Assembly (NCBI GenBank): GCA_005791535.1
Contig: SXWH01000035.1
Span: 1-64,000, forward strand
Reading direction: 5' to 3'
From: Verrucomicrobiaceae bacterium
GTDB lineage: Bacteria; Verrucomicrobiota; Verrucomicrobiia; Chthoniobacterales; Chthoniobacteraceae
Length of the DNA: 64,000 nt
Shown: positions 8,727 through 26,926 of the stretch, in pieces
Layout: each line of letters opens with the position of its first letter
Position numbering within the stretch: the stretch's first letter is position 1
Notes under the pieces: generated by a model
The model's database searches: none
What the model was told of the DNA's origin: nothing
What the model saw: only the letters and a program-made list of their open reading frames with translations
Position numbers and translations under genes: made by a program

Positions 8727-9614
8727 ATGCCAAATCCTTGGACCGGAAAAGGGAATCCTTACACACGTAAAGAAGTTCGCGAGCGCCTGATGGCGACCAT
8801 TAAGAAGGGCAATGCCATCATTGCCGGCGGCGCGGGCACGGGTATTTCCGCAAAGTTCATCGAGCGCGGCGGGGCGGATTTGATCATCATTTATAACAGC
8901 GGACGCTTCCGCATGATGGGTCACGGTTCGACTTGCGGCATGATGGCCTATGGTGACGCAAACGCAATCGCGATGGAAATCGGCGAGTACGAAGTGCTGC
9001 CGGTGGTTGAGGAATGCCCGGTCATTTGCGGCGTTCACGCGACCGACCCGCGCCGCCGCATGTGGCACTGGCTTGGAAAAGTAAAGGAGATGGGCTTTTC
9101 GGGCGTGAACAATTTCCCGACGCACACGATCGTCGACGGCCACTTCCGCGGCGTCCTTGAGGAGACGGGAATGAGCGTCAAAAAGGAGTTCGAAATGGTG
9201 GCTCTCGCACGTCGCATGGATCTCTTTAGCGTCGTTTACGTGGGCTCGCCCGAGGAGGCGATCGAGATGGCCAAGGCCGGAGCGGATGCAATCATCGCAC
9301 ACGTCGGAACGACCGTGGGCGGAAGCATCGGAGTGAAGAGCGCCGTGAAGAGCTGGGACTACACGATCAAGCGCACGCAGGATATCATCGATGCGGCGAA
9401 CACCGTCCGGAAGGACATCTTCGTCCTCTGCCACGGCGGCCCGATCAACACGCCAGAGGATGCTGACCGCGTGATGAAATCCACGGACGCCGTCGGCTTC
9501 GTCGGTGCTACATCGCTGGAGCGTATGGGCGTCGAGGAGTCGCTGACCAACCTCACACGGAAGTTCAAGTCGCTCAAAGCACCCGCAGCGAAAAAGTTCG
9601 GGAAAAAGAAGTAG
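8727..9614 (+). CDS. phosphoenolpyruvate hydrolase-like TIM-barrel enzyme
   Basis: A 295-residue cytosolic protein matching the PEP-hydrolase/TIM-barrel family, which is related to the PEP mutase and isocitrate lyase fold. Characteristic segments are IIAGGAGTGISAKFIERGGA near residue 30, FSGVNNFPTHTIVDG near 125, and the barrel strand ADAIIAHVGTTVGGSIG near 190. In many genomes this domain is fused to or follows a Tm-1-like ATP-binding domain, and the pair is proposed to act in carbon metabolism. No such partner is seen here. The lysine-rich tail (APAAKKFGKKK) is outside the fold. It converges on the methyltransferase gene, leaving nine bases between them. Family assignment is good; the actual reaction is uncertain. 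Confidence 0.78.
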   Translation: MPNPWTGKGNPYTRKEVRERLMATIKKGNAIIAGGAGTGISAKFIERGGADLIIIYNSGRFRMMGHGSTCGMMAYGDANAIAMEIGEYEVLPVVEECPVICGVHATDPRRRMWHWLGKVKEMGFSGVNNFPTHTIVDGHFRGVLEETGMSVKKEFEMVALARRMDLFSVVYVGSPEEAIEMAKAGADAIIAHVGTTVGGSIGVKSAVKSWDYTIKRTQDIIDAANTVRKDIFVLCHGGPINTPEDADRVMKSTDAVGFVGATSLERMGVEESLTNLTRKFKSLKAPAAKKFGKKK

Positions 9615-9623
9615 CGATTCGCT

Positions 9624-10526
9624 CTACGGCGGCGTTTCTCCGGCGGACCAACCGCCGTGGGCCTCGCCGTCTTTAAAGCCGAAGGTGCGCCTTACCGCGG
9701 CCATTTCGCTGCCGAGGCGGCCGGATGCCAGACGGACAATCAGGGGCGGCTCAACAATCGTGTCCCCGACAAATTCGGCTGCGTGCCGGCATGCAAAGAG
9801 CGTGAACAAAGCAGGCAGCGTCTCACGCGGTATCACATCCCGCATTCTGGCGACTGCAAGTCCGGCAGCGCGGATTCCATCCAGTGCGCGTTGTTTCTGC
9901 GGGGTCGGGAAACAGATTACGAACCAGCCGTCCGCTGAGAGGTGTGAAACGGCGGCACGCGCGTAATCGCTCACATCGCCGCGAAGCTCGAAGCGCGCAT
10001 GCGCCTTCTGCGAATCCTGGGGCAGCATGCCCGTGCCGAGCGGAAAATACGGCGGACTCCCGGTGATGAGCGGGAATTTTCGCGGCAGCGCGAGACCGCG
10101 CAGATCGCCGTGAATGGATTCCACCCGCTCGCGAAGACCGTTCGCCGAAATGTTCGATTGCAGCAGTCGGAAGCTGATTTCCTGCGCCTCGACGCAAACC
10201 AACCGCGCCACAGGGCCCATACCCCAAAGCGTGAGCAGCCCGACCGTTCCAATTCCCGTCCCCAAATCGAGATGCTCAGTAACCTGCGGAGAAACCTGAA
10301 GCGCATACCACGCTGTCAGCACATCGTCTGCGGAGTGACGGTGTCCGTTTTTCCGCTGCGCAATCATCCATCCGGCTTCGGCACCGGAATCATCCTTCAA
10401 TGGACGCCTCCCCGCGAGACCGACCGGGCCAGTCAGGGCATCCAGCGTGATTCGTTCGCCGAGTTCAGTCTCCAAACGTTGGCGCTCCGCCTCCCAATAT
10501 CCACCATCGCAATCGGAATCGCTCAT
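9624..10526 (-). CDS. TrmN6-like SAM-dependent N6-adenine methyltransferase
   Basis: A 300-residue Rossmann-fold methyltransferase. The SAM-binding motif I is HLDLGTGIGTVGLL near residue 90, and the catalytic motif IV appears as GSPPYFP near 160, a variant of the NPPY motif of N6-adenine methyltransferases. This places it near TrmN6/YfiC, which methylates A37 of tRNA-Val, although a role on another RNA or on protein cannot be excluded. The ATG at 10526 overlaps the stop of the DUF4350 gene in an ATGA junction, so it is the last gene of a translationally coupled operon. Residues read upstream of this ATG belong to the other gene's DNA and are not homologous. Confidence 0.8.
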   Translation of the reverse strand: MSDSDCDGGYWEAERQRLETELGERITLDALTGPVGLAGRRPLKDDSGAEAGWMIAQRKNGHRHSADDVLTAWYALQVSPQVTEHLDLGTGIGTVGLLTLWGMGPVARLVCVEAQEISFRLLQSNISANGLRERVESIHGDLRGLALPRKFPLITGSPPYFPLGTGMLPQDSQKAHARFELRGDVSDYARAAVSHLSADGWFVICFPTPQKQRALDGIRAAGLAVARMRDVIPRETLPALFTLFACRHAAEFVGDTIVEPPLIVRLASGRLGSEMAAVRRTFGFKDGEAHGGWSAGETPP

Positions 10527-11665
10527 CCGCCGAGTGCATCCAGAATCTTTTTTAGGTCCTGAACCAGCAACCTGAGTCCATGCGCATCGGACGGCGCACG
10601 GCTGGAAACAATCGCGCGGGCGCGGTCGGAATTCATGCCGGTGCGCTCCGCGATAAAACGGAAACATTCGTCATTCAGATCATGCCACCCGCGCCGTCGC
10701 GCCGCGGCGAGAATCGCATTCTGAACCGGAGCCAGAAGCGCATCGCCCTTCTTGTGCCGCCACAGAAACGCGCCGGTGAGCAGAAGATGATCGGAAAACT
10801 CACGAGCCGATTCCGATTTGTATGCGGCAACCGGACCGAATCGCCGAAGGTAACGCGTCAGCCAAACAACGAGCAAAACACCGAGGACGGATATCCCCAG
10901 CCATGCCTGCTCCCAGAGCATTCGCCAGAAAGAAATCCGCACACCATCGAGAAACCACACTTCGTCTGCCACACCGAGCGAGAGCAATGCAGAGAGCATT
11001 CCCGCGTGATCATGATTGCCGATGTATCGATTCCGAAACGGCTGCGCGTGCGCGAGAATCGAGACGCGTCCGCTGCCGAATGAGAAACTGACCAGCGAAG
11101 GCTCGTCCTTGTCGCCGGCCCGCGTTGTCCCCCACCCCGGAAGCGAATCGACTTTCATGCGACCGAGGAGTTCGCAATCGAAAGTTCTTCTGCCGATCTT
11201 TACATCGGTTGTTCCGCCGCCGCTGCGGGCTGAAACGTCCCCGACACCGAGGAGCGTAAGCAGATGTTTCTGTCCCGGCTCCTCGCGGCGCTTCAGTATT
11301 TCCCAAATGGCTGCCAAATCGAGCTTGGCCCAATCATCACGCCAACTCTCGCCGCCTGCGAGCATCAGAACCAAATGCCCGCCTCGACGCGTCCAACGCG
11401 CAATATCATCCGCCTCGCCGCGGCTATTGAACGACTGCAATGGCGTAATCACCGTGCCGCTCCGTTTGATACATTCCCGCAAGTCGCGACTCGTTCTCAT
11501 GTCAAATCCCAGTTCATCGAGAAATCGCTGCGCGGCGAGAAAGGGCTTCGTCCGCGCAGGGCCGCGGTAACCGATTTCCACGTCGTCGTACTCAACCTTC
11601 GCGCCGCAACCGAAAAGGAACACCGCGATGAATACGGAAAAGATGCGCGCGATTCCCGGGCTCAT
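10523..11665 (-). CDS. DUF4350-type membrane-anchored lipoprotein
   Basis: A 380-residue protein starting MSPGIARIFSVFIAVFLFGC, a lipoprotein signal with the lipobox cysteine at about residue 20. The following region resembles DUF4350, a ThuA/glutamine-amidotransferase-like fold seen in LLTLLGVGDV and SFGSGRVSILAHAQPFRN. A transmembrane helix lies near 270-290 (LGISVLGVLLVVWLTRYL) and a cytoplasmic tail of about 90 residues follows. DUF4350 proteins normally sit next to MoxR ATPase and DUF58 genes and are thought to serve envelope complexes. The start at 11665 overlaps the stop of the DUF4129 gene by four bases (ATGA), and its own stop overlaps the methyltransferase start the same way. Confidence 0.75.
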   Translation of the reverse strand: MSPGIARIFSVFIAVFLFGCGAKVEYDDVEIGYRGPARTKPFLAAQRFLDELGFDMRTSRDLRECIKRSGTVITPLQSFNSRGEADDIARWTRRGGHLVLMLAGGESWRDDWAKLDLAAIWEILKRREEPGQKHLLTLLGVGDVSARSGGGTTDVKIGRRTFDCELLGRMKVDSLPGWGTTRAGDKDEPSLVSFSFGSGRVSILAHAQPFRNRYIGNHDHAGMLSALLSLGVADEVWFLDGVRISFWRMLWEQAWLGISVLGVLLVVWLTRYLRRFGPVAAYKSESAREFSDHLLLTGAFLWRHKKGDALLAPVQNAILAAARRRGWHDLNDECFRFIAERTGMNSDRARAIVSSRAPSDAHGLRLLVQDLKKILDALGG

Positions 11666-13137
11666 TTCCGCTCCTCCGTTTCGCGATAAGGCCACTGGTT
11701 AAACAGACGCTCCATATCCGCGGCCTGCGGGTCACGCTCGGCGTATGCGATGAGAATCCACTGACCGGTTAGTTCGGAAAAATAATCGCGCTGCGGCGCT
11801 GCGGCGAGAGTCCGCGTGTGTCGAACGCAATCCCCTTCGGTGTCACCTTCCCGAACGGGCAACCGCGCGTGGTGCACGAGCCAGCTCAGCGAGCCCCGGT
11901 AAAGCAGACTCATGGCGCCGCGAGCATCACCAGCCGCCCATTTTCTCCGCGCTTCTGCGACGACGTCATCCGGAAGCGACTCGGGCGAAACATCCATTCC
12001 CATGATGGTTCGCGGTCCGGCGCGCTTGCGGACCACCGCGGATTTCGTACGCCGGAAGACATGGCGATTTGTATAAATGAGCCACGCAATCCATGCGACC
12101 ACCGCGATGATAATCGTGTAATACAAAACAACACCGATATCCGCGAGCCACGACCCTCCACGCATTTCAAAATCCATGTCCTTGTCCGATGAGATTCTGC
12201 GCTGCTTCATCGAATGCACTTTGAAGTCCGGGTGGGCGAGCACCTCTTTAATCACCGTCTTTTCGCGAGAGTCCCCAGCGCCCGACTTCTCAAGTTCGGC
12301 CGCACCCGCGACCGATGAAATGCCAAGAAACGCAAGAATAGCCGCGACTTTCTGCAACCGTCTCGCAAGGCGGCGGAATGAAATCTCGACGTCCCATCCT
12401 TCGAGATGCGTGCGGCAGTTCAGATACAGCCCGAACCCGCCACCGATGTAGAATATCTCAACGAGCGTCATCGACGCCAGATAACCGGCAACGAGAGTCC
12501 ATTTCAGCCACCCCTCCATCTCGCCCCGGCGGAACGCCATGTCGAGAAACGCGTTCCCAAGCTCGGTCGCGCCGCCCGGCTCCCCCGTCATCGTGATCCC
12601 AAGCGTGAGGAGCGCAAACAGCAGCACCATTTCGTAAAGACCGCAAAGCGCGACGAGCGCCGCGGCTCTTCCACCGGCAATTCGAAGCAGCACCTGCATG
12701 CGATCGGCAAGAGCGCGCCCTTTCTGCTGCTCGAGGTCGATGGCTGGCATCGTGAGCGCGCGGGACCACGAAAAATGCGGGACTACAAAGAGCCACGGTA
12801 CGCGATAGACGAGCAGCCACGGAAGGCGGTTCACAATCATTCCCGGCCATGCTTTGAGCACGCTCTTGAGCGACGGTGTCGCACCAAAAAGCGAACGGCT
12901 GATGATAAAAAGCGGCACGCGATCGTAGATCGGCTTCAGCCACCAAATCAGCATGATCGACCAGCCGAACGGAATGAACCAGCTCAGGCCGAGCAGTATC
13001 ATCCAAAGTGGCACCACCGTAAGAAACCAAGCCGCGAGGATGCGCGGAAAAAGCCGGCGGGTCATCGCGAATCCGAGATCCACCGCCTCCCATTGTTCGC
13101 GCGGGCGAATGACTGCGCTTACATCCTCAAGCCTCAT
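11662..13137 (-). CDS. integral membrane protein with C-terminal DUF4129 domain
   Basis: A 491-residue membrane protein. The first half has about six hydrophobic segments (for example FPRILAAWFLTVVPLWMILL and MVLLFALLTLGITM) and amphipathic loops. A periplasmic stretch follows near 285-345, then another helix (VVLYYTIIIAVVAWIAWLIY). The C-terminal DUF4129 domain contains AGDARGAMSLLYRGSLSWL and GQWILIAYAERDP. DUF4129 is commonly found beside transglutaminase, MoxR or DUF58 genes. The chosen ATG at 13137 overlaps the end of the SpoIIM gene by 11 bases. An ATG at 13173 would lengthen the overlap and add a non-homologous N-terminus. Confidence 0.75.
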   Translation of the reverse strand: MRLEDVSAVIRPREQWEAVDLGFAMTRRLFPRILAAWFLTVVPLWMILLGLSWFIPFGWSIMLIWWLKPIYDRVPLFIISRSLFGATPSLKSVLKAWPGMIVNRLPWLLVYRVPWLFVVPHFSWSRALTMPAIDLEQQKGRALADRMQVLLRIAGGRAAALVALCGLYEMVLLFALLTLGITMTGEPGGATELGNAFLDMAFRRGEMEGWLKWTLVAGYLASMTLVEIFYIGGGFGLYLNCRTHLEGWDVEISFRRLARRLQKVAAILAFLGISSVAGAAELEKSGAGDSREKTVIKEVLAHPDFKVHSMKQRRISSDKDMDFEMRGGSWLADIGVVLYYTIIIAVVAWIAWLIYTNRHVFRRTKSAVVRKRAGPRTIMGMDVSPESLPDDVVAEARRKWAAGDARGAMSLLYRGSLSWLVHHARLPVREGDTEGDCVRHTRTLAAAPQRDYFSELTGQWILIAYAERDPQAADMERLFNQWPYRETEERK

Positions 13138-14092
13138 TCCGCCCCCTTCCCACGAACGTAAAGTAAGCGCCAAATGCCAGCCATCCCAGAATCCCGACCG
13201 TATGTTTCACAATCGCTGGCACGCTCGACGGCGACCAGAATCCTTCAATCGGCGCAGCGAGGGCGACCATCAGCGCTCCGCCAATGAGAATCGGAAGCGC
13301 ACGGGTTCCACACGCCGCAAGCGCGTCTTTTCGAGAGAGTCGTCCCGGTTTCACCAGGGCAAGCCCGATAACCGTACCAGCCGCGCCGCACAGAATAATC
13401 CCGAGGATCTCAAACGATGAGTGACTTGCGCAAAACGTGTAAAGCCGGTGCAGGTTTCCATTCGCGTGGACGTAGCCGAACATCGCGCCGATGAACACTC
13501 CCTGAAAACCGAGTCCGTAGATCGCTCCGACTCCGAACAAAACACCACTCGCGAAGCTCCGGAATGCGATGCTCACGTTGTTGATGATGTAAAATCCGGT
13601 CATCGCGAAGTTGCTTCCAAACTGCTCGCGAACGTACTCCTCCATCCCGCCTTTTCCGTACATCGCATCCATCATAGCCTGCTCCTCGGGACCCAGCGCG
13701 GCGTAGATCCATTTCGGCTCAAAATAGGCGGTCGCGATGAATGCAGCGAACGGCAGCCAGAACATCGCGAAACACAGCCACACAACGCGCCATTCCGAGC
13801 GCACTGCGGAGGGAAACGTCTCTCCGAAAAAGAGAACGAAGCCGCTTGCACCGCGATTCAGCGACGCGTGCAGGTGCCCCCAGACAGAGATGATGATCGA
13901 GTTCAGCCGATCGCACAGTTTGCGCCCGTACATTCGATGCTGCGCAAGCGCGAGATCTCCGCAGACCTGCCGGAAAAGGGCAGGAACACGCGCCGCGTCA
14001 CCGGGGTCGGCGCGCTTGTCCAAAGACTGCGCTGCTGCCTCCAGCTCGGCCCAGTGGGTTTCGTTGTTCTTTTCAAAATCCGCGCGTTTCAT
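13127..14092 (-). CDS. stage II sporulation protein M (SpoIIM) family membrane protein
   Basis: A 321-residue protein with about five transmembrane segments and the SpoIIM-family layout: a cytosolic N-terminal helical region with AQHRMYGRKLCDRLN, then membrane helices containing IINNVSIAFRSFASGVLFG and the strongly conserved ASHSSFEILGIILCGAAG. In Bacillus SpoIIM belongs to the engulfment machinery. In non-sporulating bacteria the family is found next to RDD, MoxR and DUF58 genes and has no established role. Its ATG at 14092 overlaps the RDD stop by four bases (ATGA), and its end overlaps the DUF4129 gene, so it is a middle gene of a tightly coupled operon. Confidence 0.85.
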   Translation of the reverse strand: MKRADFEKNNETHWAELEAAAQSLDKRADPGDAARVPALFRQVCGDLALAQHRMYGRKLCDRLNSIIISVWGHLHASLNRGASGFVLFFGETFPSAVRSEWRVVWLCFAMFWLPFAAFIATAYFEPKWIYAALGPEEQAMMDAMYGKGGMEEYVREQFGSNFAMTGFYIINNVSIAFRSFASGVLFGVGAIYGLGFQGVFIGAMFGYVHANGNLHRLYTFCASHSSFEILGIILCGAAGTVIGLALVKPGRLSRKDALAACGTRALPILIGGALMVALAAPIEGFWSPSSVPAIVKHTVGILGWLAFGAYFTFVGRGRNEA

Positions 14093-14868
14093 GAGTCACG
14101 AAGCCAGGTTCCGATTTCGAGCACGCGAACCACACCAGCGTGGCCTTCAACTCCCAGGATATCCGCTAGGGGCTTTACGAGTTCCTGACGCCGCGAATCA
14201 GACCATGTGGGCGAGCGCTCGACGAATTGTACAAATGCAAGCTGCTCCTCGCGCGTGAGCACGAACGGAGGAGGCGCCGCGGGAACCGCCACACGCAGCT
14301 TCGCCGTGACTGCGGACTCCACCGGCTTGTCGTAAATGACGAGTGTATCGGCCACCAAATCTCCGAGCCGCTGGAAGCGCCGGGTGCAAAGGCAACTCGT
14401 GAGCCCGAAAAGGTAAAAACCGAAGACCAGCCACGCGAGCTGCCACTGCGGCAGTAAAGGCATCATATCGGCGAATCGGACAAGATTTCGAAGGAATGCA
14501 GCGCCCCATCCCACCGGCGCGCCGGACGTTCGCACGACACGAAGTCCCATCCATTTCTTCCCAGGCGTCCGCCCCCGCCGCAAAACCTCAAACAGAATAA
14601 AGTATCCCCAGTAAGTCCCGAATGCTGTGAGCAGGATCAATCCGATGGACGTTTCCATGCCGATAATGTTCCCGATGAGCATGAAGAACAGCAGCAACCC
14701 TACGAACATCAACGCCGCGAGCAGCATGTCGGCAATCAGAGCCATCGCCCTCGGAAGAGGTCCCGCGGGGTGCAACTGCACCTGCACGCCTTCGGCGAGT
14801 TCGATGAATTGGAGCGTGTCCAGTTTTTGCGGGGCTTCCACGATCGCGGGATGTATTGCGCGCACCAT
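14089..14868 (-). CDS. RDD-family membrane protein
   Basis: A 259-residue protein with the RDD-family pattern: LPRAMALIADMLLAALM gives the first Arg and the Asp in the first helix, and GRTPGKKWMGLRVV plus the cysteine-rich loop RRFQRLGDLVADTLV complete the family features. It has about four membrane segments followed by a cytosolic tail with a helical ERSPTWSDSRRQELVK motif. RDD proteins are often transport or envelope accessory proteins of unknown function. The ATG at 14868 opens with MVRAIHPAIVEAPQ; upstream codons run towards the rpsU promoter and look unrelated. It is the first gene of the five-gene minus-strand operon and is divergent from rpsU. Confidence 0.82.
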   Translation of the reverse strand: MVRAIHPAIVEAPQKLDTLQFIELAEGVQVQLHPAGPLPRAMALIADMLLAALMFVGLLLFFMLIGNIIGMETSIGLILLTAFGTYWGYFILFEVLRRGRTPGKKWMGLRVVRTSGAPVGWGAAFLRNLVRFADMMPLLPQWQLAWLVFGFYLFGLTSCLCTRRFQRLGDLVADTLVIYDKPVESAVTAKLRVAVPAAPPPFVLTREEQLAFVQFVERSPTWSDSRRQELVKPLADILGVEGHAGVVRVLEIGTWLRDS

Positions 14869-14994: not shown

Positions 14995-15195
14995 ATGCCA
15001 GAAGTACAAGTCCGCAAAGGAGAGCCAATCGACCGCGCACTCAAGCGCCTGAAGAGCAAGCTCGAAACCGAGGGAATCATGGACGAAGTGCGCCGACTGC
15101 GCGCTTTCGAGACGCCGACGCAGAAATCACGCCGCAAAGCGAAGATCAACGCCAAGCGCGCCAAAGCCAAAAAGGGCCGTTTCCAAATGGCCTAA
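14995..15195 (+). CDS. rpsU: 30S ribosomal protein bS21
   Basis: A 66-residue, highly basic protein reading MPEVQVRKGEPIDRALKRLK, then the SRRKAKINAKRAKAKKG tail. This is bS21, a late-assembling protein of the small ribosomal subunit that aids initiation at the anti-Shine-Dalgarno region. The length is normal for the bacterial protein. It has its own promoter, a strong Shine-Dalgarno sequence and a terminator, so it appears monocistronic. It lies between the divergent RDD operon and the coiled-coil gene pair, with none of the usual partners dnaG or rpoD beside it. Confidence 0.97.
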   Translation: MPEVQVRKGEPIDRALKRLKSKLETEGIMDEVRRLRAFETPTQKSRRKAKINAKRAKAKKGRFQMA

Positions 15196-17440: not shown

Positions 17441-18257
17441 ACTTGGGTTTCGCGTCCGCTTTCAACCGGTCGAGTTCGCGCTGCAGTTCGGCACACTCCT
17501 TGGAATGTGCGCGGTAATACTTCTCGAACTCCAGTCGCTGCTCTTCGCTTCGCTCACTGGGTTCAAGCGCCATCGTCGTCCGAATCGAATCCGGAACCTC
17601 CAGAATCGGCGGATTCGCAGTCGATACAAAAACCCGGAAATTGACGGACCTGGCCGCCGTCCGCTGATTTCGAAGTGTGAGAAGCAATGAAGATTGCGGC
17701 TCGTGCTTGGGAGGACTTTTCAATTCGAATACGGCAGCCGTGGACGTCCCCTTATGAAACGGCACCTCCCATCGGGTCTCGACGTTTCCGTCGACTGCAT
17801 TCGTAACCGCGCCCGTATGCGCCTCGAAATTCGCCGTCGCTGTCGCGATGGAAATCAACGGCGCATTTGCACCCGGCCGAATCTCGACCTCTCCAATCTC
17901 GATCTTTTCGACGCCTACACCCGCGGCCCACTCAATTCGGAACGCGGTGATACCGAAGCGCGGAGGGCGTAGTTCGATGGCAAACTCAGCGCCGCTCCCG
18001 TTCGCATTCGATGTCCGAATTGTTCCATCGGCTGCGAGTTCAATACTGCCATTTACAGCATTTACGCGCTCCACTTCCACGGGCTCCCATTTCACGGGCG
18101 CGTGGAGAGCGGCCTCCCATTCATGCAGGCCATTTTCCACAGCTTCCTCGATTCGCTTCTCCAGCGCCGCGATTTGCTCCGTACGTGAATCACATGCGGA
18201 GAGTGCCAGCGGAAGCATGCCGAGCAATACGGCAAATATCACGGTGCAGTGATTCAC
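17421..18257 (-). CDS. lipoprotein with discoidin-like segment, coupled to the giant amylase
   Basis: A 278-residue protein with a lipoprotein signal peptide ending LPLALSAC, the lipobox cysteine at residue 22. A short helical stretch is followed by a beta-rich region (residues 45-220) resembling a discoidin or galactose-binding fold, and then a conserved tail (SIRTTMALEPSERSEEQ, EFEKYYRAHSKE, ELQRELDRLKA). That tail recalls the linker in PVC DUF1549/DUF1553 cytochrome proteins, where a sugar-binding-like domain precedes a similar YYR motif. The start is a GTG sharing its first base with the TAG of the amylase gene (TAGTG), so translation is probably coupled. It may tether or present substrate at the cell surface; that is inference. 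Confidence 0.72.
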   Translation of the reverse strand: MNHCTVIFAVLLGMLPLALSACDSRTEQIAALEKRIEEAVENGLHEWEAALHAPVKWEPVEVERVNAVNGSIELAADGTIRTSNANGSGAEFAIELRPPRFGITAFRIEWAAGVGVEKIEIGEVEIRPGANAPLISIATATANFEAHTGAVTNAVDGNVETRWEVPFHKGTSTAAVFELKSPPKHEPQSSLLLTLRNQRTAARSVNFRVFVSTANPPILEVPDSIRTTMALEPSERSEEQRLEFEKYYRAHSKECAELQRELDRLKADAKPKFKASPE

Positions 18258-21200
18258 TACGGCGCAATCGCAACGACGCGGTAGAATCGTTGAACCTCCA
18301 AGCCCGGCGCGGTGACGGTCTGCGTACCGTCATCGGTCCAGGTAATGTTGCCACCCGTTCCAGCGATATTCGGTCCGGCCTGCGTCCACGGCTGGAGCAA
18401 ATCGTTTGTGTATTCCACACGGTAGGCACGACCGGCGCGACTTGCGAAGGTTACCGCTGTGGTGCTCGCGGTCGGTCGCGTCACGGTGATCCGAGCGATA
18501 GCATTGTCTGCAGCAAGCGGGTTTGAGGAAAAGGCATACTCCTGCGAGTTGGTGAGCCCGTCGTTGTCCGGGTCACCGCCCGCTCCGTTCGCGCCGCTGG
18601 TCAGGAACGGATCAATGCCGTTCTGCACTTCCCACAAGTCCGGCAACCCGTCGCCGTCGGAATCGCCACTGATTGTCGAACCCACCTGCGAACCGATTTC
18701 ATACTGAATCCCGCCGCCGGTGAGTTGGAATTCCACCTGCACGGTTTGCGCGAGGTTTCGCATGTTGATGGTGTCGAACGCCACTCCACTATCGCGATCG
18801 ACCGCAGAAACATTGCGCGGGAAATTCGTGCCAATCGGAACGATCGACACACGCGACGGACGCGCGCTGTTTCGATTGTAGAGTTGGTAGGAAACCGGAT
18901 TCGAATTCGGCGTCCCAAGCAGATTCGCCTGTCCGTTTAGAAGGAGGTCTCCAAGGTTCGGTGAGAGCCCGAAGCGGACGAAAAGCGGACCACCACCGCC
19001 CACGATGCTGTGATTTACGGACAACGCGGTTGCCCCAACAGCAAGCGTCACCGTCTTGCGAATCTTTCCGTCACTGCTGGTAATCTGCCATCCCGCCCCC
19101 GAAGGCGCGGCGACGATTGAGTATAAATCGTTCACATACTGATTGGTCCCGGGCCCGGTCGTCGGAGTGAAGAACTGATCGCGCATCGCGGTCACCCGGT
19201 ACGCGTCCACTGCGCCACCGACGATGTTGCTGAGGCCCTCGCGCTCGTCAGCAAGCCCGGCATAGCTGGCGAAATTTCCAATCGTCTGGACCACTGAGCC
19301 AGTCGCAGGATCGCGAGCCCAAAGTCCTGTGAGCCGCCCGCCAATGCGCTCGAACAGCGCACAGAGCCTATCGTTGTAAATCAGGTATTCGCTCTCGCCA
19401 TCAAGGTCGGCGTCGAATGTATCGGTCGCCACCGTTCCGTTGAACGAACCAGCCGCCGCACCCTGCACCCACGTGTCGATTCGCTTGTATATCGCAGCGT
19501 TTCGGAACTGCGCCTGCGAAACCGCAGCGAATGACGCGAGGGTTTGCGATGTCGTATCGGGGTAAATGTAGGCGCCCGTGCTGAACTTGGAGCGGTCGTC
19601 GTTCGTCTGATTATGGAACGCGGTTTGGAACACCGAACTGAACGCGGTTCCGCGAGCAAGCCGCCCCATCGGACTCGAGAGCGAACTGATCGTATTCAAG
19701 GTCGCCCACGTCTCGTGACTCACGCCGTCGATTCCCACGGTGCCCCATTTCTTCGCAGCAGGAAGTTGCACGGATGGGCGAACGTTAAACCGTTTGTCGC
19801 GCAAGCCCTCCTCGCGCCCGGCCTGGCCATTATACCAGTTGTCGTAGGACTCCTGAGTCGCGTGATCCAGAAAATCATGTTGCACCTTCGGCAATCCAAT
19901 GTTCGCACCGCGATTGACCGTGCCCCATGTATTCCCGTTGCCATCCGGCGGGACATTCAAGTCGATCTGGCCGGCGGCAATCTCCTGTGGAGTCGTGATT
20001 TTGGTCCACGGATGGCAGGCAAGCCACCGCATGTTCCTATCGTAATCGTCGGCGTTGTCATTGATGGCGAAATCCTCCCAGTTGTTGACGATTACAATGA
20101 CCTGATCCTGCGAAGAACTGCGGGCCTTGCGCAGGAGCAAATTGCGCAACGAGATTGGGAGTCCATTGTCGTCGTTGGTGAAAAGAATTACTCCGAGGTT
20201 GTCGTTAATCACGAACGACTTTACGCCGTTCATTTCGTTGATCCGGTATCCGTCGTTGCTGAGCGAACTCTCACGCCCGAACCATTTGAACACGTGCCGC
20301 TGTTGATCGATGAACGTCCAGCCAAAGCCAAGCGCCGCGATCTTCTGGAACACATCCGTGTCGGCGACGCGCTCCGGATTCCAGAAGACCTGAGTCGAAA
20401 CACCGGGTCCGTAAATCGAAGTGAGGTACTCGTTCGCGAGGGAAACATTCGATGCGTTAAAGTCCGCCGGAAAGTAGTCGATGATGTGGTCACTGAAAGT
20501 CGAGCCAAGCAATTGCACGACACCGCTGCCGGCGAGATTCCGGATCCGCGAGTTGAACGCGGGACCGTCGCGATACTGCCGCGGTGAAGCCGGATCCACC
20601 TTCGCCCACTGGATGGCGGAAGCGAGCGTCGGCGTAATGTGCATCGCCACCGGAACCCCGTAAGCCTGATGCACATCAAGAGGACGATAGTATCCCGCGC
20701 CATTCGCAGTGTTGATTAAAGCCTGAATGCTGCTTCCCGGCTGAATCGCCTGATTTCCATGAATCACCGAAAGAATCTTCGCGCTCCGGCCGCGGTCATT
20801 GCCGGCGGTTCGCCCGAAATACGCCTGCAGTTTGCTTCCGTTGCCGCTGATTGCCGCCTGCGCACCGTAATAGTCATTCGCGAGATAATCGTCGTAAATC
20901 GTATCGCGGATGTCCGTGCGTCCACCGAGGTCGCCAGGACCGACAGGACTATTCGTTGTTCCGTCCTTGGTGGTGAAAACCTGGAAAAGCAGGTCCGCTG
21001 CGTTCAAGCCGTTCCATCCAGCATCGAGTAAAGCCTGACGGCTGATCGAAAATTCAACGCTGTCCAATTCGCTGTTGTAATAACTCTTCTTGAAGCCATT
21101 CGCAGACGACTGGTCGCGCTGAATGACACCCGCTCCGGCGAGACTTTGACCGAGCCCCGTGGTGTTGGTCGTGGGATTCGTATCGATGTAAACTCGTCCG

Positions 21201-24200
21201 TTGTTTCCGCTGTAGCAGGCGACTACGGCCTGCCATCCCATGGTTGTGTATGTGTCGACATCGTCCGGGAGATTGCGCTCGCCGATACCCGGATTGCCCA
21301 CATTCAGGACGACGTAGATGTCCAGTTTTCCGTCCTCGGCAAACGGTACCAAGTCGGCCACATCCACACGGAAGTAGAAATTCCCATCGCCACCCGCACC
21401 GGTCGCGCCGCCGTCGTGCGCGTAAAAGGCCACAATATCGCGCGACGAATCACCACCATCGGCGTTGTGGTAAATATCGCCACCGCCGGTGTTGGTTCCC
21501 TCGCCATCAACCTCGTCGAGCACAATTAAGTCATCCGCAGTCCAGTCCGTGAACTCCTTCGAATTGGAGACCCCGCCGATCACAACGGGTGTCTGAGGTC
21601 CGATAACAATGCTATTCGGCGGCGGAGGCACTCCTGTGTCCGGCTGCCGAGGGTCCGTGCCGTTCACGAACTCCTGAAGGTTGGTGAATCCGTCGTTGTC
21701 CGGATCGCCCGCAGGACCATTGCTCGCGAGACCAGGACGGCCCGTGCGCAAGCTGGTCCCGGTGCCAGCATCGAGCGGGTCGAGTCCGTTGGCGGATTCC
21801 CATCCGTCAGAAAGGCCATCCCCATCCGTGTCACCCGAACATGCATCGGTCTCACTGAATAGAAGGCCGATTCGATGTCCGTTGGCCGCGTTCGTTTTCG
21901 GGAACTGAGCAGCAACCTTCGCGAGGCTCACCCGCTTCGATTTATACGAACCAAAGGACCACGTGATGTCGCTGAATCGGCCATAGCCGAGCGCATTCGA
22001 TTCATCGAACGGCCCAAGAACAACGAAGTCGCCGGCCACATCCGCCGCATCGAGATCCACCAGAACCAGTGACACACCACCGCTGTCATCGACATCCTCG
22101 CTTCCGTCTTTCAATCCGTCGCCATCCGTGTCGCCCGAAGCCGGGTCGGTCTCCAGAACGACAGCGCCTGCCGGCAACTTCGACCGGTCGAGACGCGACG
22201 TATTGTAGAACGTCGGCGGATGGGCAATGAGCGCAGTGATGCTGCCCGTTCCATCGACGGTCCCGATATCAACACGACCGTTGCGGTTTGCGTCCTCGAC
22301 GCCGTCATTCAACCCATCGTCATCGGTGTCCGCCTTGTTCGGATTTGTGCTGGTTCCCGCGATGAGATCAGTCCGGTTATTGTTCGCGTTGTAGCTCCAC
22401 GGTGAAAACAGTTCGAAACCACCGGGCCGCGTCGAATTGCCCGTGACGTTGAAAAGCGGTGAATCGAGGTCGGCCTGGAAGTTAAGAAAACCGTCCCCGT
22501 TTGTATCTGTCGCCGTATTTGTGCCGGCATCGCTTGCACTCGCCCACCCTACTTCCAGTCCGTCGGAAAGCCCATCGCCGTCGGTATCCACAATCGTCGG
22601 GTCGGTCTGACCGAACGCAAAATGCACGTGCACCTGACCGTTCGTCCACGTGTTAGGGTCCGTTGCCGGAAGCGCCGTCAAGGTCTGCTCGCCCGAATCG
22701 CTGAGACCGTCGTCATCGTCATCCGTGTCAGTCGGATTCGGCGGGACAATCTGCCGGAAAAGCACCGTCGCATTCCGGATATCGCGGCCCTCGACCGTTG
22801 CTGCGTTTCCATCAAGATCGCCGCGGGCCTCGAATGTGAACTGCCCTTCCGTGATGCCCGACCACAGGAATCTCCAGAACTTGTGATCGCCTTCGATGCG
22901 CGGATTGGGCGTGCCATCATTGATCAGCGCCATCGTTCCCGCGCCCTTCGTGAACACCATCTGCACGCCGATGTATGCATCGTCCGTGTCCACCTCCACC
23001 ACAAACTGTCGCTGCTCCGGTGTGGGCACCGGCACGTCGGGAAGGATTATTTCATACCGCTTCCCATCGCTGTCGAACTCCGGTGGATTAATGATGCTGA
23101 TCAACGGCGGCGGGAGCACCGGAAAAGCCTTCACGAGCCGCGTCGCCACAAGCGACGAGTTTCCGGGCCGCGTCATCGTGACCTCAATTAAGTGCAGGAA
23201 GTCCGGATTGCCATTATATAAATTCGGAAGGGCAAACTGGAAGTCGTGATACCCCGGCGATGCGTTGTAGATGATCGGCAAAGTCTGCGGAACCTGAGTG
23301 ACCGCACCCTGCGATTCACCGCTCACCTCACTCGCGATTTTGACGGATATCCGCGAACGCAACTCCGACTCGCTCAGTCCGTCGCCGAGCGTATTGGTAA
23401 AGCGCACTTTCATCACGTACCCGTCGCCTGTGACCTGCCCGTCCTGCTGGGGAAACGCCACGAACATCCGGAGATTCGGCCCCGCTGTGTTCACCGTGCG
23501 GACGAGTTCCGTAGTCCACGACGCAGCCGGAGAAAGGGTCATATTGCGCGACGACGACAACTCCAGAAGCCTCACCTTGATCGTCGCCGGGCCCGTCGCG
23601 GGGATGTTGCGGTAATTAAACCGGAACTCCCGCGGATACGGACTGCTCGTGGTAAGCGACGGCGTCACCTCGCTCGCACGCTGCCAAGTGGCGGCAAGGT
23701 TCCCATCGAAGGTGCCGTTGCCGTTGATGTCCGTAAACGACTCGCCCGAGTCCCGCACCCCGTTTCCATTCGAGTCGGTGAAAGGCTCCGGCCCCGCACC
23801 ATTCCCGCCTTGCGAACCAGTCACGCCATCATCGTTTGATGGATCACCGTCGGTGATATTGTACCAGACTTCCGTGACATCGCTCGCTGCGCGAACCACA
23901 GCTCCGTAGGTGCCGCCGCCGAGCGTTTCGTTCTGCGACGGGAACACAACTGCCCCCTGCGGCGTCTGGGTGTCGTAGTAAAAAGTCTGCGTAAAAGTAT
24001 TGTAGATGCTCGCCTTTCCACTGCGGCTCAAAAACGCGCGCGCCCGCAGAACGTGCCAGCCCTCTTCAAGTCCGGTTCGCTGCTCCGAGTAGTCGTTGTG
24101 AGGACGAACGGTCGCGGTCGTTGCGTTGAAGTTGGTGATTTGGAAAACAGTCTCCATTTTCCGCTTCACATCCACCGTTGTGGCACTCGATGGAAACACC

Positions 24201-26926
24201 GAGGCGCCGTTTGATTTGAAAGCGCCCACTTTGTAGCGGATTACCGTCCCGGCTGTTTGCGCAGGAATATTGCCGGTCCACCAATCCGTCACATTGGAGC
24301 CATCCGGATTTCCCGCCTCCTGATAACTCATGACCACGACCTGCGTCGTGCCGGCGGGCTCGCCGCCGGAGCCTTCGGGCGCAGACCCGTCCGTCGTGTA
24401 GTAAAGGCGTAGATTATCGACCTGGAACTGGTATCCAGTCTTCACCTTGATCGTAATCGGCTGCCCCGCCGCCAAAGCAGGCTGCGGCGAAAACTGCGCT
24501 CCACCGATGTCACGATTCGCCTCGGGATCATGATAAACGTAAGTCGCCGTGCCGGAACTCGTGTTCGTGCCACTTCCATTCGCGCGCGTGAAACCGACCG
24601 TTCCGACCGTGAACCGCCAGGTCTCGGCGCCGGGTGAACCAATCACATTTCGCGCCGTGTCCTTCGCCGCAAATTTCTCGGTGCTCCGCCGGACAAACTG
24701 CATCTGCTCGTAGCCATTGAATACATCCGTGGATAGCGCGGGCTTGTTGTCACGTTTGTCGCCGGTCGTAGGGCCGATTCCCATCTGGGAATTGATGTCC
24801 ACGCCGCCGTCCAGTTTCATGAGGATGTTCTCCGCAGAACCGTCTGTGCGGGCGATGAACGAAAGGTTCGTGCCGCTCGTCACGCGCGGCAGCGAGATGC
24901 TGTATTTGTAGTCGGTCGTGTTTGCGTCCGGCAGACCGTACGGATTGAAGCCCTTGTCCCCGTTCCGCCCGTCCTTGCGCTCGACGGTCACCGTGCCCGC
25001 AGGCACTCCATTCTGGAGAATCGTCAGCGGCCCGGTGTTTGAAATCGTGGACGTCTCCGGCGACCGGTATGAAAACATGAAGTATCCACCAGGCGGCACA
25101 ATCACACTGCCGAGGCTGGATGCATTGACGTAAAAGCCTCCGTTGTAGGTCGAGTAGTTGTAAAGATACGCGCTGCCGGGAAATGCCGATGCGATCCCCC
25201 TCGCCTGCCCGGACGAAAAATTATCGTTCATCATGAACAGCAGCGTCACGCCATCCGCGTCGCTCATGCTTCCATTCTCGCGCTTGTCGATTCGTTCGTA
25301 GGCAACGTAGTCCGCATCAGACCAGCGTCCGACCTGATCTCCGCGGGAGAAGTGCTCATGGACATACACGACATTTGGAATCTTTGGGTCACCGAACTGC
25401 CCCAGGAAATTTGTGTTTGAATGCCGCGGAAACGCGCCACCGCTCCCCTCCAAAAGGCCCGCCTTGTTGTAGCCGTCCGTGTAAATCAGCGGCAAACCGG
25501 CCCGCGTGAAATAGTACGCGTGCTGCAACTCACGGCGGGCGGCAAAATCCGAATCGTGGGACTGTGCGTGAGTCACACCGACGCCCGGCGAGAATCCTCC
25601 TGCTCCCGGCTGGTCGTAGCCATTAAGCCCGACTCCCGGATTTCCAAGCCGGTTGTTCAATTCGTTCCGCAGCGGATTGTCGATGAGCCGCATTCCAGCG
25701 TTGATGTATCCATCAAATCCCGGCGGTGATCCGAGATGCTCGCCGAACAGCATCAGGTCATCCCGCGGCTGCTCGGTATCGAATACTGTGTCGCGGTGGT
25801 TGTTCCAATCGGAATAGCCGCGCACGAGATTGAACTGCTCCTGCGCGCCGCCGAGGTAGCCGGCATTCGAGCTATCCTTGTTGGCTCCGCCCTGCTGGCC
25901 GAAAAAGTAATCCGGAACGTGTTTTACCGCGTCCAGCCGGTAGCCATCCGCTTTCGTCCGGTCCGTCTGCCAGCGAAGCGTGCGGATCAGCATCGCGTTC
26001 ACATCCTCGGGAACCGGATTTCCCATATTGTACTTCCCGTCACCAAATCCCCAAGCCGCCGTATTCCGGCCGGGCGTCAGCGGATCGACACCCGTGTCCG
26101 TGAACGGCTCGCTCGGCTCCCCGACGTCGTGCTGACCGTTGCCATTCAAGTCCGTCCAATCAAAGCGCCCGTTGCCTGCGCCGTTTCCAGCGACACCGAC
26201 ATCCTGAAACGGCTCCTTGTTCGCGAAAGGATACACGGTCACGTTCACGCCACCGCCGCTCAGCGCCTGCGGCAGGTCCGTATCCACGTAATACTCGGGA
26301 TTGTTTGGATGCCGGGTGAACGTGAGCTTCGGCATATCATCACCTTCATTGAAACCGTGGTTGGTGTTCGGTGTCTCGTGCGCGATGTCGATGAGGTCGG
26401 AAAGCCCGAGATTCTGCACCTGCCAGGCGCTGTTCCAGTCCCGCGTGTTGTCCCATTTCCGGTAGAATCCATCCTTTGTTTTCCGGAGGTGAAAATCCTC
26501 CGGCACAAATCCGGGATACACATCGATGGGCGTCGTCTCGTTGTAACCCGGAATATCGAACGCATTATGGTTCATGATATTGTCGAAATACACGCGGATG
26601 CCGAAGCGGTGCGCTAGGGCAACCAACTCAAGCAACTCCGCTTCCGTGCCGTACAGCGTGCGCACGGTCCCCCGCTGGTTCTTCGATCCAAGATCGAAGC
26701 GATCCCACAAATCATACCCTACGCTGAATCCGCCCGACCCCTTACACGGAGGCGGCAGCCACAGCGACGTGTAGCCGACCTCGGCAAGTTCCGGAATCCG
26801 CCGCATGATTTCACGGTACTCCGTGTTGAAATACTGCAACATCCCCTCGCCCCGCGCTCCGAGGAGAGAGCAACAAAACAGGATGCAACCGACGAGAAGG
26901 CGGAAAATTCGGTTAAAGGTGCGCAT
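18257..26926 (-). CDS. giant secreted amylase with GH13 and GH57-like modules
   Basis: A 2889-residue protein with a signal peptide. The N-terminal GH13 alpha-amylase barrel has all four family regions: DNIMNH (115-120), GYRLDAVKH with nucleophile Asp332, LFGEHLG with acid/base Glu396, and QSHDSD with Asp458. A long beta-rich middle follows, including calcium-binding DxDxDG repeats of the thrombospondin-3 type (for example DTDGDGLSDG) that run to about residue 1780. Next comes a glucodextranase-C/DOMON-like carbohydrate-binding region (about 1785-2035) and a GH57-like catalytic module starting near His2056, with a putative nucleophile Glu2185 in VFWNPERVADTD. Two more DxDxDG repeats and a C-terminal beta domain ending RFYRVVAIAP close the protein. 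It should act outside the cell on starch-like alpha-glucans. Confidence 0.85.
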   Translation of the reverse strand: MRTFNRIFRLLVGCILFCCSLLGARGEGMLQYFNTEYREIMRRIPELAEVGYTSLWLPPPCKGSGGFSVGYDLWDRFDLGSKNQRGTVRTLYGTEAELLELVALAHRFGIRVYFDNIMNHNAFDIPGYNETTPIDVYPGFVPEDFHLRKTKDGFYRKWDNTRDWNSAWQVQNLGLSDLIDIAHETPNTNHGFNEGDDMPKLTFTRHPNNPEYYVDTDLPQALSGGGVNVTVYPFANKEPFQDVGVAGNGAGNGRFDWTDLNGNGQHDVGEPSEPFTDTGVDPLTPGRNTAAWGFGDGKYNMGNPVPEDVNAMLIRTLRWQTDRTKADGYRLDAVKHVPDYFFGQQGGANKDSSNAGYLGGAQEQFNLVRGYSDWNNHRDTVFDTEQPRDDLMLFGEHLGSPPGFDGYINAGMRLIDNPLRNELNNRLGNPGVGLNGYDQPGAGGFSPGVGVTHAQSHDSDFAARRELQHAYYFTRAGLPLIYTDGYNKAGLLEGSGGAFPRHSNTNFLGQFGDPKIPNVVYVHEHFSRGDQVGRWSDADYVAYERIDKRENGSMSDADGVTLLFMMNDNFSSGQARGIASAFPGSAYLYNYSTYNGGFYVNASSLGSVIVPPGGYFMFSYRSPETSTISNTGPLTILQNGVPAGTVTVERKDGRNGDKGFNPYGLPDANTTDYKYSISLPRVTSGTNLSFIARTDGSAENILMKLDGGVDINSQMGIGPTTGDKRDNKPALSTDVFNGYEQMQFVRRSTEKFAAKDTARNVIGSPGAETWRFTVGTVGFTRANGSGTNTSSGTATYVYHDPEANRDIGGAQFSPQPALAAGQPITIKVKTGYQFQVDNLRLYYTTDGSAPEGSGGEPAGTTQVVVMSYQEAGNPDGSNVTDWWTGNIPAQTAGTVIRYKVGAFKSNGASVFPSSATTVDVKRKMETVFQITNFNATTATVRPHNDYSEQRTGLEEGWHVLRARAFLSRSGKASIYNTFTQTFYYDTQTPQGAVVFPSQNETLGGGTYGAVVRAASDVTEVWYNITDGDPSNDDGVTGSQGGNGAGPEPFTDSNGNGVRDSGESFTDINGNGTFDGNLAATWQRASEVTPSLTTSSPYPREFRFNYRNIPATGPATIKVRLLELSSSRNMTLSPAASWTTELVRTVNTAGPNLRMFVAFPQQDGQVTGDGYVMKVRFTNTLGDGLSESELRSRISVKIASEVSGESQGAVTQVPQTLPIIYNASPGYHDFQFALPNLYNGNPDFLHLIEVTMTRPGNSSLVATRLVKAFPVLPPPLISIINPPEFDSDGKRYEIILPDVPVPTPEQRQFVVEVDTDDAYIGVQMVFTKGAGTMALINDGTPNPRIEGDHKFWRFLWSGITEGQFTFEARGDLDGNAATVEGRDIRNATVLFRQIVPPNPTDTDDDDDGLSDSGEQTLTALPATDPNTWTNGQVHVHFAFGQTDPTIVDTDGDGLSDGLEVGWASASDAGTNTATDTNGDGFLNFQADLDSPLFNVTGNSTRPGGFELFSPWSYNANNNRTDLIAGTSTNPNKADTDDDGLNDGVEDANRNGRVDIGTVDGTGSITALIAHPPTFYNTSRLDRSKLPAGAVVLETDPASGDTDGDGLKDGSEDVDDSGGVSLVLVDLDAADVAGDFVVLGPFDESNALGYGRFSDITWSFGSYKSKRVSLAKVAAQFPKTNAANGHRIGLLFSETDACSGDTDGDGLSDGWESANGLDPLDAGTGTSLRTGRPGLASNGPAGDPDNDGFTNLQEFVNGTDPRQPDTGVPPPPNSIVIGPQTPVVIGGVSNSKEFTDWTADDLIVLDEVDGEGTNTGGGDIYHNADGGDSSRDIVAFYAHDGGATGAGGDGNFYFRVDVADLVPFAEDGKLDIYVVLNVGNPGIGERNLPDDVDTYTTMGWQAVVACYSGNNGRVYIDTNPTTNTTGLGQSLAGAGVIQRDQSSANGFKKSYYNSELDSVEFSISRQALLDAGWNGLNAADLLFQVFTTKDGTTNSPVGPGDLGGRTDIRDTIYDDYLANDYYGAQAAISGNGSKLQAYFGRTAGNDRGRSAKILSVIHGNQAIQPGSSIQALINTANGAGYYRPLDVHQAYGVPVAMHITPTLASAIQWAKVDPASPRQYRDGPAFNSRIRNLAGSGVVQLLGSTFSDHIIDYFPADFNASNVSLANEYLTSIYGPGVSTQVFWNPERVADTDVFQKIAALGFGWTFIDQQRHVFKWFGRESSLSNDGYRINEMNGVKSFVINDNLGVILFTNDDNGLPISLRNLLLRKARSSSQDQVIVIVNNWEDFAINDNADDYDRNMRWLACHPWTKITTPQEIAAGQIDLNVPPDGNGNTWGTVNRGANIGLPKVQHDFLDHATQESYDNWYNGQAGREEGLRDKRFNVRPSVQLPAAKKWGTVGIDGVSHETWATLNTISSLSSPMGRLARGTAFSSVFQTAFHNQTNDDRSKFSTGAYIYPDTTSQTLASFAAVSQAQFRNAAIYKRIDTWVQGAAAGSFNGTVATDTFDADLDGESEYLIYNDRLCALFERIGGRLTGLWARDPATGSVVQTIGNFASYAGLADEREGLSNIVGGAVDAYRVTAMRDQFFTPTTGPGTNQYVNDLYSIVAAPSGAGWQITSSDGKIRKTVTLAVGATALSVNHSIVGGGGPLFVRFGLSPNLGDLLLNGQANLLGTPNSNPVSYQLYNRNSARPSRVSIVPIGTNFPRNVSAVDRDSGVAFDTINMRNLAQTVQVEFQLTGGGIQYEIGSQVGSTISGDSDGDGLPDLWEVQNGIDPFLTSGANGAGGDPDNDGLTNSQEYAFSSNPLAADNAIARITVTRPTASTTAVTFASRAGRAYRVEYTNDLLQPWTQAGPNIAGTGGNITWTDDGTQTVTAPGLEVQRFYRVVAIAP

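Follow-up and report, generated by a model that had tools for sequence, protein, structure and literature searches.

Gene content of the cassette

The window analyzed here is a 64,000-nucleotide stretch (positions 1 to 64,000 of contig SXWH01000035.1) from the genome of a Verrucomicrobiaceae bacterium, assembly GCA_005791535.1. This genome is designated G000 and the contig C251; other G numbers denote related genomes. The window contains a cassette of five minus-strand genes, encoding in order an RDD-family protein, a SpoIIM-family protein, a DUF4129 protein, a DUF4350 protein and a methyltransferase (Table 1). The first four very probably form the membrane half of a broken operon, all parts of which have been kept, with the cognate MoxR and DUF58 genes lying on two other contigs, C241 and C255, of the same genome.

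Successive genes of the cassette overlap by 4 (ATGA), 11, 4 (ATGA) and 4 (ATGA) bases, as read from the sequence. The overlaps and the Pfam matches confirm the tight arrangement of four membrane genes noted in a preliminary description of the locus. The methyltransferase, described there as fused to the cassette, is a separate gene. All four membrane proteins scored above the cut-offs of their Pfam families, and the DUF4129 protein and the methyltransferase passed theirs narrowly. The RDD protein is 78% identical to that of genome G015 over 250 amino acids; its start may be the ATG at 14868 or the GTG at 14841, which is where the G015 homologue starts. For the DUF4129, DUF4350 and methyltransferase genes, the longer starts in the open reading frame (ORF) list fall within the upstream genes. 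The 11-base overlap of SpoIIM and DUF4129 was present at all eight adjoining junctions examined (G000, G088, G124, G066, G153, G154, G023 and Prosthecobacter gellanilyticus), a constancy that is more than chance.

The cassette is flanked by rpsU and a PEP-hydrolase-like gene. A profile search of the contigs of the genome found no match to MoxR or DUF58 on C251, in agreement with the preliminary description, which had placed neither gene at either end. A tblastn search beside the cassette found no convincing MoxR or DUF58 remnant (outside the genes proper, best E value 0.07 or worse).

Table 1. Features of the cassette and of split loci in two relatives (window positions, except those preceded by an L number, which refer to other loci)
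Feature	Positions	Strand	Basis or remark
RDD-family membrane protein	14089-14868	-	PF06271, 74 bits (cut-off 24.1)
SpoIIM-family membrane protein	13127-14092	-	PF01944, 91.2 bits (cut-off 26.9)
Membrane protein, DUF4129 domain C-terminal	11662-13137	-	PF13559, 29.7 bits (cut-off 24.8)
DUF4350 protein	10523-11665	-	PF14258, 40.6 bits (cut-off 30.4)
MTS methyltransferase, TrmN/HemK-like	9624-10526	-	PF05175, 24.7 bits (cut-off 23)
RDD/SpoIIM overlap, 4 bases, ATGA	14089-14092	-	sequence
SpoIIM/DUF4129 overlap, 11 bases	13127-13137	-	sequence
DUF4129/DUF4350 overlap, 4 bases, ATGA	11662-11665	-	sequence
DUF4350/methyltransferase overlap, 4 bases, ATGA	10523-10526	-	site where MoxR follows in contiguous relatives
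rpsU	14995-15195
PEP-hydrolase-like gene	8727-9614
Scar remnants in G015 and G156	L061:4764-4805, 10745-10870; L064:5518-5643; L073:4581-4769		look like duplication and complementary loss

Gene order and joint occurrence in relatives

In four genomes of the same genus (G066, G124, G088 and G153), the order RDD-SpoIIM-DUF4129-DUF4350-MoxR-DUF58 was found in one run, with MoxR directly after DUF4350. The same order was found from SpoIIM onward in G154, whose contig begins inside SpoIIM. The membrane proteins of the cassette thus belong to a MoxR/DUF58 neighbourhood, as the preliminary description had proposed. The six genes are not contiguous in the window genome.

The cassette-type DUF58 was detected in eight of the 10 genomes of the genus, and DUF4129 and SpoIIM were present in those same eight. 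All three were absent from G005 and G155 (76% complete), whose best MoxR matches, 324 and 320 bits, were at the level of paralogues. Across the order, the cassette DUF58 was found at an E value of 1e-40 or better in at least 6 of 147 genomes, the same six that have the RDD-SpoIIM-DUF4129 order.

SpoIIM was present in 25 of the 147 genomes, and the following counts refer to the stretch fetched around it. Both MoxR and DUF58 were labelled in 15 stretches (not adjoining in G015 and G039), DUF58 without a labelled MoxR in three (G030, G046 and G022), and neither in seven (G000, G021, G052, G108, G072, G146 and G134). Among these seven, the stretch of G021 is a contig of 3.9 kb, the sole SpoIIM matches of G146 and G134 are divergent and were not labelled by our own models, and G052 has a DUF58 match at a further place in the genome. 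In G030 (L042:2690-5297), a GH113 glycoside hydrolase gene lies directly before DUF58, where MoxR would be expected.

Among the loci with a different arrangement, seven had all five of DUF4129, MoxR, DUF58, SpoIIM and RDD labelled (G054, G092, G003, G059, G071, G139 and G077), and each of these shows the order DUF4129-MoxR-DUF58-SpoIIM-RDD. A DUF4350-like gene, with a weak score where tested, lies between DUF4129 and MoxR at these loci. The order in the window is a rearrangement of this one and occurs within this genus as well as in G023 and P. gellanilyticus.

The cognate MoxR-DUF58 pair

The window genome is a 5.16-Mb draft of 294 contigs. Nine DUF58 matches and nine MoxR places scored above the cut-offs, some of the latter being halves at contig ends. 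The end of C241 and the start of C255 both lie inside a MoxR gene. The C241 half (161 amino acids) is 80 to 88% identical to the MoxR proteins of the contiguous cassettes in G088, G066, G124 and G023 (88% to G088), versus at most 60% to five full-length paralogues of its own genome. The C255 half is 58 to 79% identical to the same four proteins (79% to G088), versus at most 38% to the own paralogues. On the G088 protein, the gap between the two halves is one residue. In comparison with the sister genome G015, the C241 and C255 halves are 92 and 89% identical, respectively. Against a profile of cassette MoxR proteins, the halves scored 340 and 293 bits, the intact G015 gene 657 bits and the best full-length paralogue of the window genome 328 bits. 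The C241 half contains GKPGLGKTH and LLLADEIN, which we take to be the Walker A and Walker B motifs of MoxR.

A DUF58 protein of 434 amino acids (PF01882, 91.9 bits; cut-off 23.4) is encoded directly behind the C255 half. Over its whole length, it is 78% identical to the cassette DUF58 of G015, 78% to that of G156, 71% to G088, 68% to G124, 65% to G153, 65% to G066 and 51% to G023. The other eight DUF58 proteins above the cut-off in this genome are about 30% or less identical to the cassette DUF58 of G015, G088 or P. gellanilyticus (best 30.1% over 93 amino acids). These identities indicate that the MoxR-DUF58 pair on C241/C255 is orthologous to the pair located directly after DUF4350 in the relatives. 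By this comparison, the ATPase that the preliminary description considered missing is encoded in the same genome, with MoxR seen as halves on two contigs. Lineages with a broken operon single out the cognate pair among the approximately eight MoxR and nine DUF58 proteins of the window genome.

Upstream of MoxR on C241 there is a divergent CCG-domain gene, adjoining LUD-domain genes. Since a divergent gene precedes MoxR, the MoxR-DUF58 pair appears to form its own unit. No convincing remnant of DUF4350 was found by tblastn before MoxR on C241 (best E value 0.07 or worse). SpoIIM and DUF4129 each gave a single match in the window genome, both in the cassette. The preliminary description had allowed that the cassette may be a remnant if MoxR and DUF58 turned up with another copy of SpoIIM and DUF4129. 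MoxR and DUF58 are indeed found elsewhere, but the only SpoIIM and DUF4129 are those of the cassette, indicating that it is not a remnant.

Six contigs of this genome break within MoxR genes: C241, C94 and C186 at their ends, and C255, C53 and C7 at their starts. Five of the breaks fall in one conserved stretch, NPIEQEGTYPLPEAQ, and that of C7 about 23 residues earlier. The breaks are probably due to DNA similarity among the paralogues at this stretch. The same similarity may make the number of MoxR genes and the ends of operons unreliable in draft genomes of this group. Two more MoxR-DUF58 loci of the window genome, on C7 (L021:1-7648) and C71 (L022:5616-10235), have vWA-like ORFs behind them in a crude gene map and are presumably Bat-type operons.

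Split modules, scars and the MoxR leader

The six genes are also not contiguous in G015, G156, G108, G072 and P. gellanilyticus. In G015 and G156, RDD-SpoIIM is followed by a remnant of the start of DUF4129 (G015, 14 codons, 93% identity, E value 0.015; G156, 31 codons, 55% identity, E value 8e-4), and intact DUF4129-DUF4350 genes are located at a separate place. There, they are preceded by an N-terminal RDD remnant of 22 residues (68% identity, E values 0.003 and 0.005) and by the last codons of SpoIIM (read by eye in G156). The remnants are short and each E value is weak, but we consider them real because all of them sit in order at the expected place. They suggest a duplication followed by complementary loss, which would be a possible way to separate genes that are locked by a shared 11 bases. 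In G000 itself, no scar of the operon break was found by tblastn. The distance between the MoxR-DUF58 pair and DUF4350 is 0.97 kb in G015 and 5.9 kb in G156.

The ratio of nonsynonymous to synonymous substitution rates (dN/dS) between G015 and G156 was 0.02 to 0.14 for the six module genes, even though the module is split in both genomes. These values show working genes under purifying selection and do not bear on a shared function. Comparisons with G000 carry no weight, as their synonymous sites are near saturation.

In P. gellanilyticus (Brevifollis gellanilyticus) NBRC 108608, a 75.9-kb contig carries RDD, SpoIIM and a 948-amino-acid ORF joining DUF4129 and DUF4350, and the gene after them is convergent. 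The cassette-type DUF58, on a contig of 367 kb, is not preceded by MoxR, and the cassette-type MoxR (556 bits; next paralogue, 325 bits) lies about 30 kb from this DUF58. The membrane genes, MoxR and DUF58 thus occupy three places. In G108 and G072, RDD-SpoIIM is located apart from DUF4129, MoxR and DUF58, which are together on another contig. A scan of contigs with two peptide patterns confirmed at least 10 loci, a number that does not bound the wider distribution. The preliminary description had taken the tight coupling to suggest a complex made in fixed ratio. The overlaps are real, but fixed-ratio synthesis of the whole complex is made less plausible by relatives that keep the same genes at separate places.

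A 19-base leader, GAACAGRCGGCTAGACTTT, precedes MoxR in G000, G015 and G156. In a search of 107 loci, eight matched, all of them stretches of those three places and none from other places. The window contains no copy of the leader, even with three mismatches allowed. Its conservation suggests that the leader may be a promoter of the MoxR-DUF58 pair. The simplest order of events would be that the pair already had a promoter in the common ancestor of G000, G015 and G156 and was later displaced in G000.

A shared neighbourhood that would point to a reciprocal translocation was looked for and not found. When the genes tested from window positions 1 to 30000, C241 and C255 were compared with 11 other loci, the only real matches were the cassette genes, the methyltransferase and smc (C241 and G066). 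Three further hits were antisense or wrong-frame ORFs over those genes. On C241, the smc gene (L066:4362-8201) and the relocated MoxR are about 11 kb apart, and in G066 the smc gene (L053:9528-13418) adjoins the cassette DUF58. Perhaps the pair stayed near the old site and the membrane block moved.

The split could have arisen in the assembly, if the contig were chimeric between DUF4350 and the methyltransferase and the true operon contiguous. Draft status and the breaks of C241, C94, C186, C7, C255 and C53 inside MoxR genes speak for such an artefact. It would, however, require separate chimeras on two contigs, C251 and C241. On the latter, MoxR lies behind the leader common to G015 and G156 and next to the divergent CCG-domain gene by the LUD-domain genes. 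Moreover, MoxR is also apart from DUF4350 in both of these relatives, and a named strain, P. gellanilyticus NBRC 108608, has the same membrane block without MoxR-DUF58. An artefact is very improbable.

The methyltransferase

The methyltransferase (METHYLTRANSFERASE) scored 36.2 bits against the NCBIfam TrmN model NF047853, whose cut-off is 350, and weakly resembles solved methyltransferases, e.g., 7wm6. TrmN is the tRNA1Val m6A37 methyltransferase. The window protein matches its model weakly and shows SPPY instead of the expected NPPY motif.

At an E value of 1e-10 or better, the gene was found in 11 of 40 genomes of the family and in 3 of the 10 of the genus. The other two genus genomes that have it, G015 and G156, carry an orthologue of 78% identity at different sites, 9 bases after a large gene, which in G015 has a cytochrome c domain. 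The G112 copy lies in front of a dihydrouridine synthase gene. If the methyltransferase had replaced MoxR-DUF58 as a working part, the complex would be coupled to RNA or protein methylation, and the precise ATGA overlap with DUF4350 would allow translational coupling. We consider this very improbable, as the orthologue lies elsewhere in G015 and G156, no match at the above threshold was found in five of the eight genus genomes that bear the module, and G128, G142, G112, G096 and G132 carry the gene without SpoIIM. The distribution points to a lineage-specific neighbour rather than the system part suggested by the preliminary description; we judge the function of the methyltransferase to be unrelated and any link to the cassette to go no further than cotranscription.

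Protein features and proposed mechanism

The model of DUF4350 (9 sequences) comprises an N-terminal helix, an alpha/beta (GATase1/flavodoxin-like) domain, a long hydrophobic helix at residues 246 to 276, which is read as transmembrane, and a C-terminal helical domain. Cys20 follows the N-terminal helix and is invariant in all 9 rows, in surroundings that we take to resemble a lipobox, and a lipid anchor at this residue is likely. No other cysteine is invariant in these rows, which argues against a GATase-type enzyme. The model matched IFT52 (5fmr_A; Z score 14.0, root mean square deviation 3.1, 172 residues aligned) and a beta-galactosidase (3tts_A; E value 3e-6), and GldG was not among the rows. 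The modelled domain thus has an IFT52/GldG/beta-galactosidase-trimerisation-like fold, although a shared fold does not show function. The DUF4129 model is almost wholly helical, and a fold search with it gave nothing at an E value of 0.001 or better. DUF4129 and DUF4350 are joined in one ORF in P. gellanilyticus (948 amino acids, L080:9965-12811) and G023 (977 amino acids, L057:4316-7249), both of which keep the lipobox-like cysteine. These shared ORFs suggest that the two proteins are partners.

The N terminus of the cassette DUF58 is hydrophobic and was read by eye as a membrane anchor. The protein contains LLDCGRRM, in which D238, G240, R241, R242 and M243 are invariant in 7 of 7 rows. A search of PDB sequences with the profile of the cassette DUF58 gave no match up to an E value of 0.1.

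In the proposed mechanism, RDD, SpoIIM, DUF4129, DUF4350, MoxR and DUF58 would make up one MoxR-vWA module. Its operon has very probably been broken between DUF4350 and MoxR, and the cognate pair kept at the end of C241 and the start of C255 behind its own conserved leader. By analogy with known systems, a MoxR hexamer would use ATP and act through the vWA domain of DUF58. Its target would be an inner-membrane complex of SpoIIM, RDD and DUF4129, together with DUF4350. The DUF4129 domain and the C-terminal domain of DUF4350 are predicted to face the cytoplasm, and the scaffold domain of DUF4350 the periplasm. The likely output is the assembly or remodelling of an envelope complex.

Interpretation of the split

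The orthology of the pair, its absence from the window, the single SpoIIM and DUF4129, the joint presence and absence of the genes and the purifying selection in the sister genomes are established at the level of sequence. The genomic split itself is close to demonstrated; the working mechanism of the module is inferred. The module probably lacks no part, and what has been broken up is the operon alone. The lack of MoxR and DUF58 on C251 would also allow a cassette that functions after losing its ATPase, either with no such enzyme or driven by some unrelated protein. This reading is largely refuted by the orthologous pair, whose conservation is no lower than that of the cassette genes, and is hardly tenable.

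Several points weigh against a broken but complete module. The join of C241 and C255 was deduced from matching ends without overlap; no exact overlap of at least 15 bases was found between the ends of C241, C94 and C186 and the starts of C7, C255 and C53. The genome is only a draft (86.6% complete, 294 contigs). The joint occurrence across the 10 related genomes could go back to just one event or two. The absences in the order-wide DUF58 search are less sure, as it scored 11 candidates where a genome had more. In G030 and G046, DUF58 lies beside or near SpoIIM with no labelled MoxR on the fetched stretch, MoxR not having been sought elsewhere. Contiguity does not guarantee an intact cassette: in G066, SpoIIM appears to have a frame shift close to its start (L053:3614-3700), with the ATGA start at the usual place out of frame and homology beginning at residue 36. 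Unrelated neighbours have dN/dS values like those of the module genes (methyltransferase, 0.105; esterase, 0.156), and the module genes are no lower as a group. The DCGRRM sequence of DUF58 departs from the canonical metal ion-dependent adhesion site motif, DxSxS, which makes metal-dependent binding uncertain. Finally, the mechanism draws on what is known of the families and on thin models built from 9 sequences (predicted local distance difference test scores of 74 for DUF4350 and 70 for DUF4129).

A break that recurs in the lineage by several routes without loss of parts is a mild surprise. Operons that are broken yet keep every part offer natural evidence of a connection between the parts that goes beyond cotranscription. 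It is possible, although we put this forward tentatively, that the machine has repeatedly been divided into two blocks, one of membrane genes and one of motor genes under a separate promoter, with the motor gaining its promoter first and being displaced later. The dosage of the motor could then be set independently of the membrane complex, and one MoxR-DUF58 pair might serve further clients.

Comparison with known systems

In the portions of Makarova et al. 2015 (PMC5898192) that concern these families, two associations are described: vWA and COG0714 (MoxR-type) genes accompany SpoIIM, whereas DUF4350 is found with MoxR and vWA genes. For the DUF4350 set, the authors predict a complex that serves secretion or membrane remodelling. 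DUF4350 is described there as having similarity to GldG, a signal peptide, one C-terminal transmembrane helix and a link to beta-galactosidase trimerisation. These systems resemble that of the window in gene families and DUF4350 features. In contrast to them, the window has its membrane block physically apart from the MoxR-vWA block, and its DUF4350 has the invariant lipobox-like cysteine (9 of 9). RDD, DUF4129 and DUF58 are not named in the main text of that paper. The same source covers the SpoIIM of the DMP engulfment complex, which is likewise a PF01944 membrane protein; the cassette SpoIIM differs in its context, which in the relatives is MoxR/DUF58/DUF4129/DUF4350.

In the NorQ-NorD system (PMC13036017), a vWA partner mediates the action of a MoxR-type hexamer on its target. 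That target is nitric oxide reductase, into which NorQD inserts metal; no such target is encoded at the cassette locus, and DUF58 is another vWA family. SpoIIM, DUF58, RDD, DUF4129 and DUF4350 are all absent from the main text of the eLife 2020 paper on MoxR conflict systems (PMC7159879). In the open-licence papers covered, which comprise predictions, surveys of genomes and studies of individual MoxR or vWA genes (e.g., PMC11834572 and PMC5700661), no experiment on the six-gene set was found.

Elsewhere in the window, a minus-strand ORF of 2,889 amino acids extends from position 18257 to 26926.

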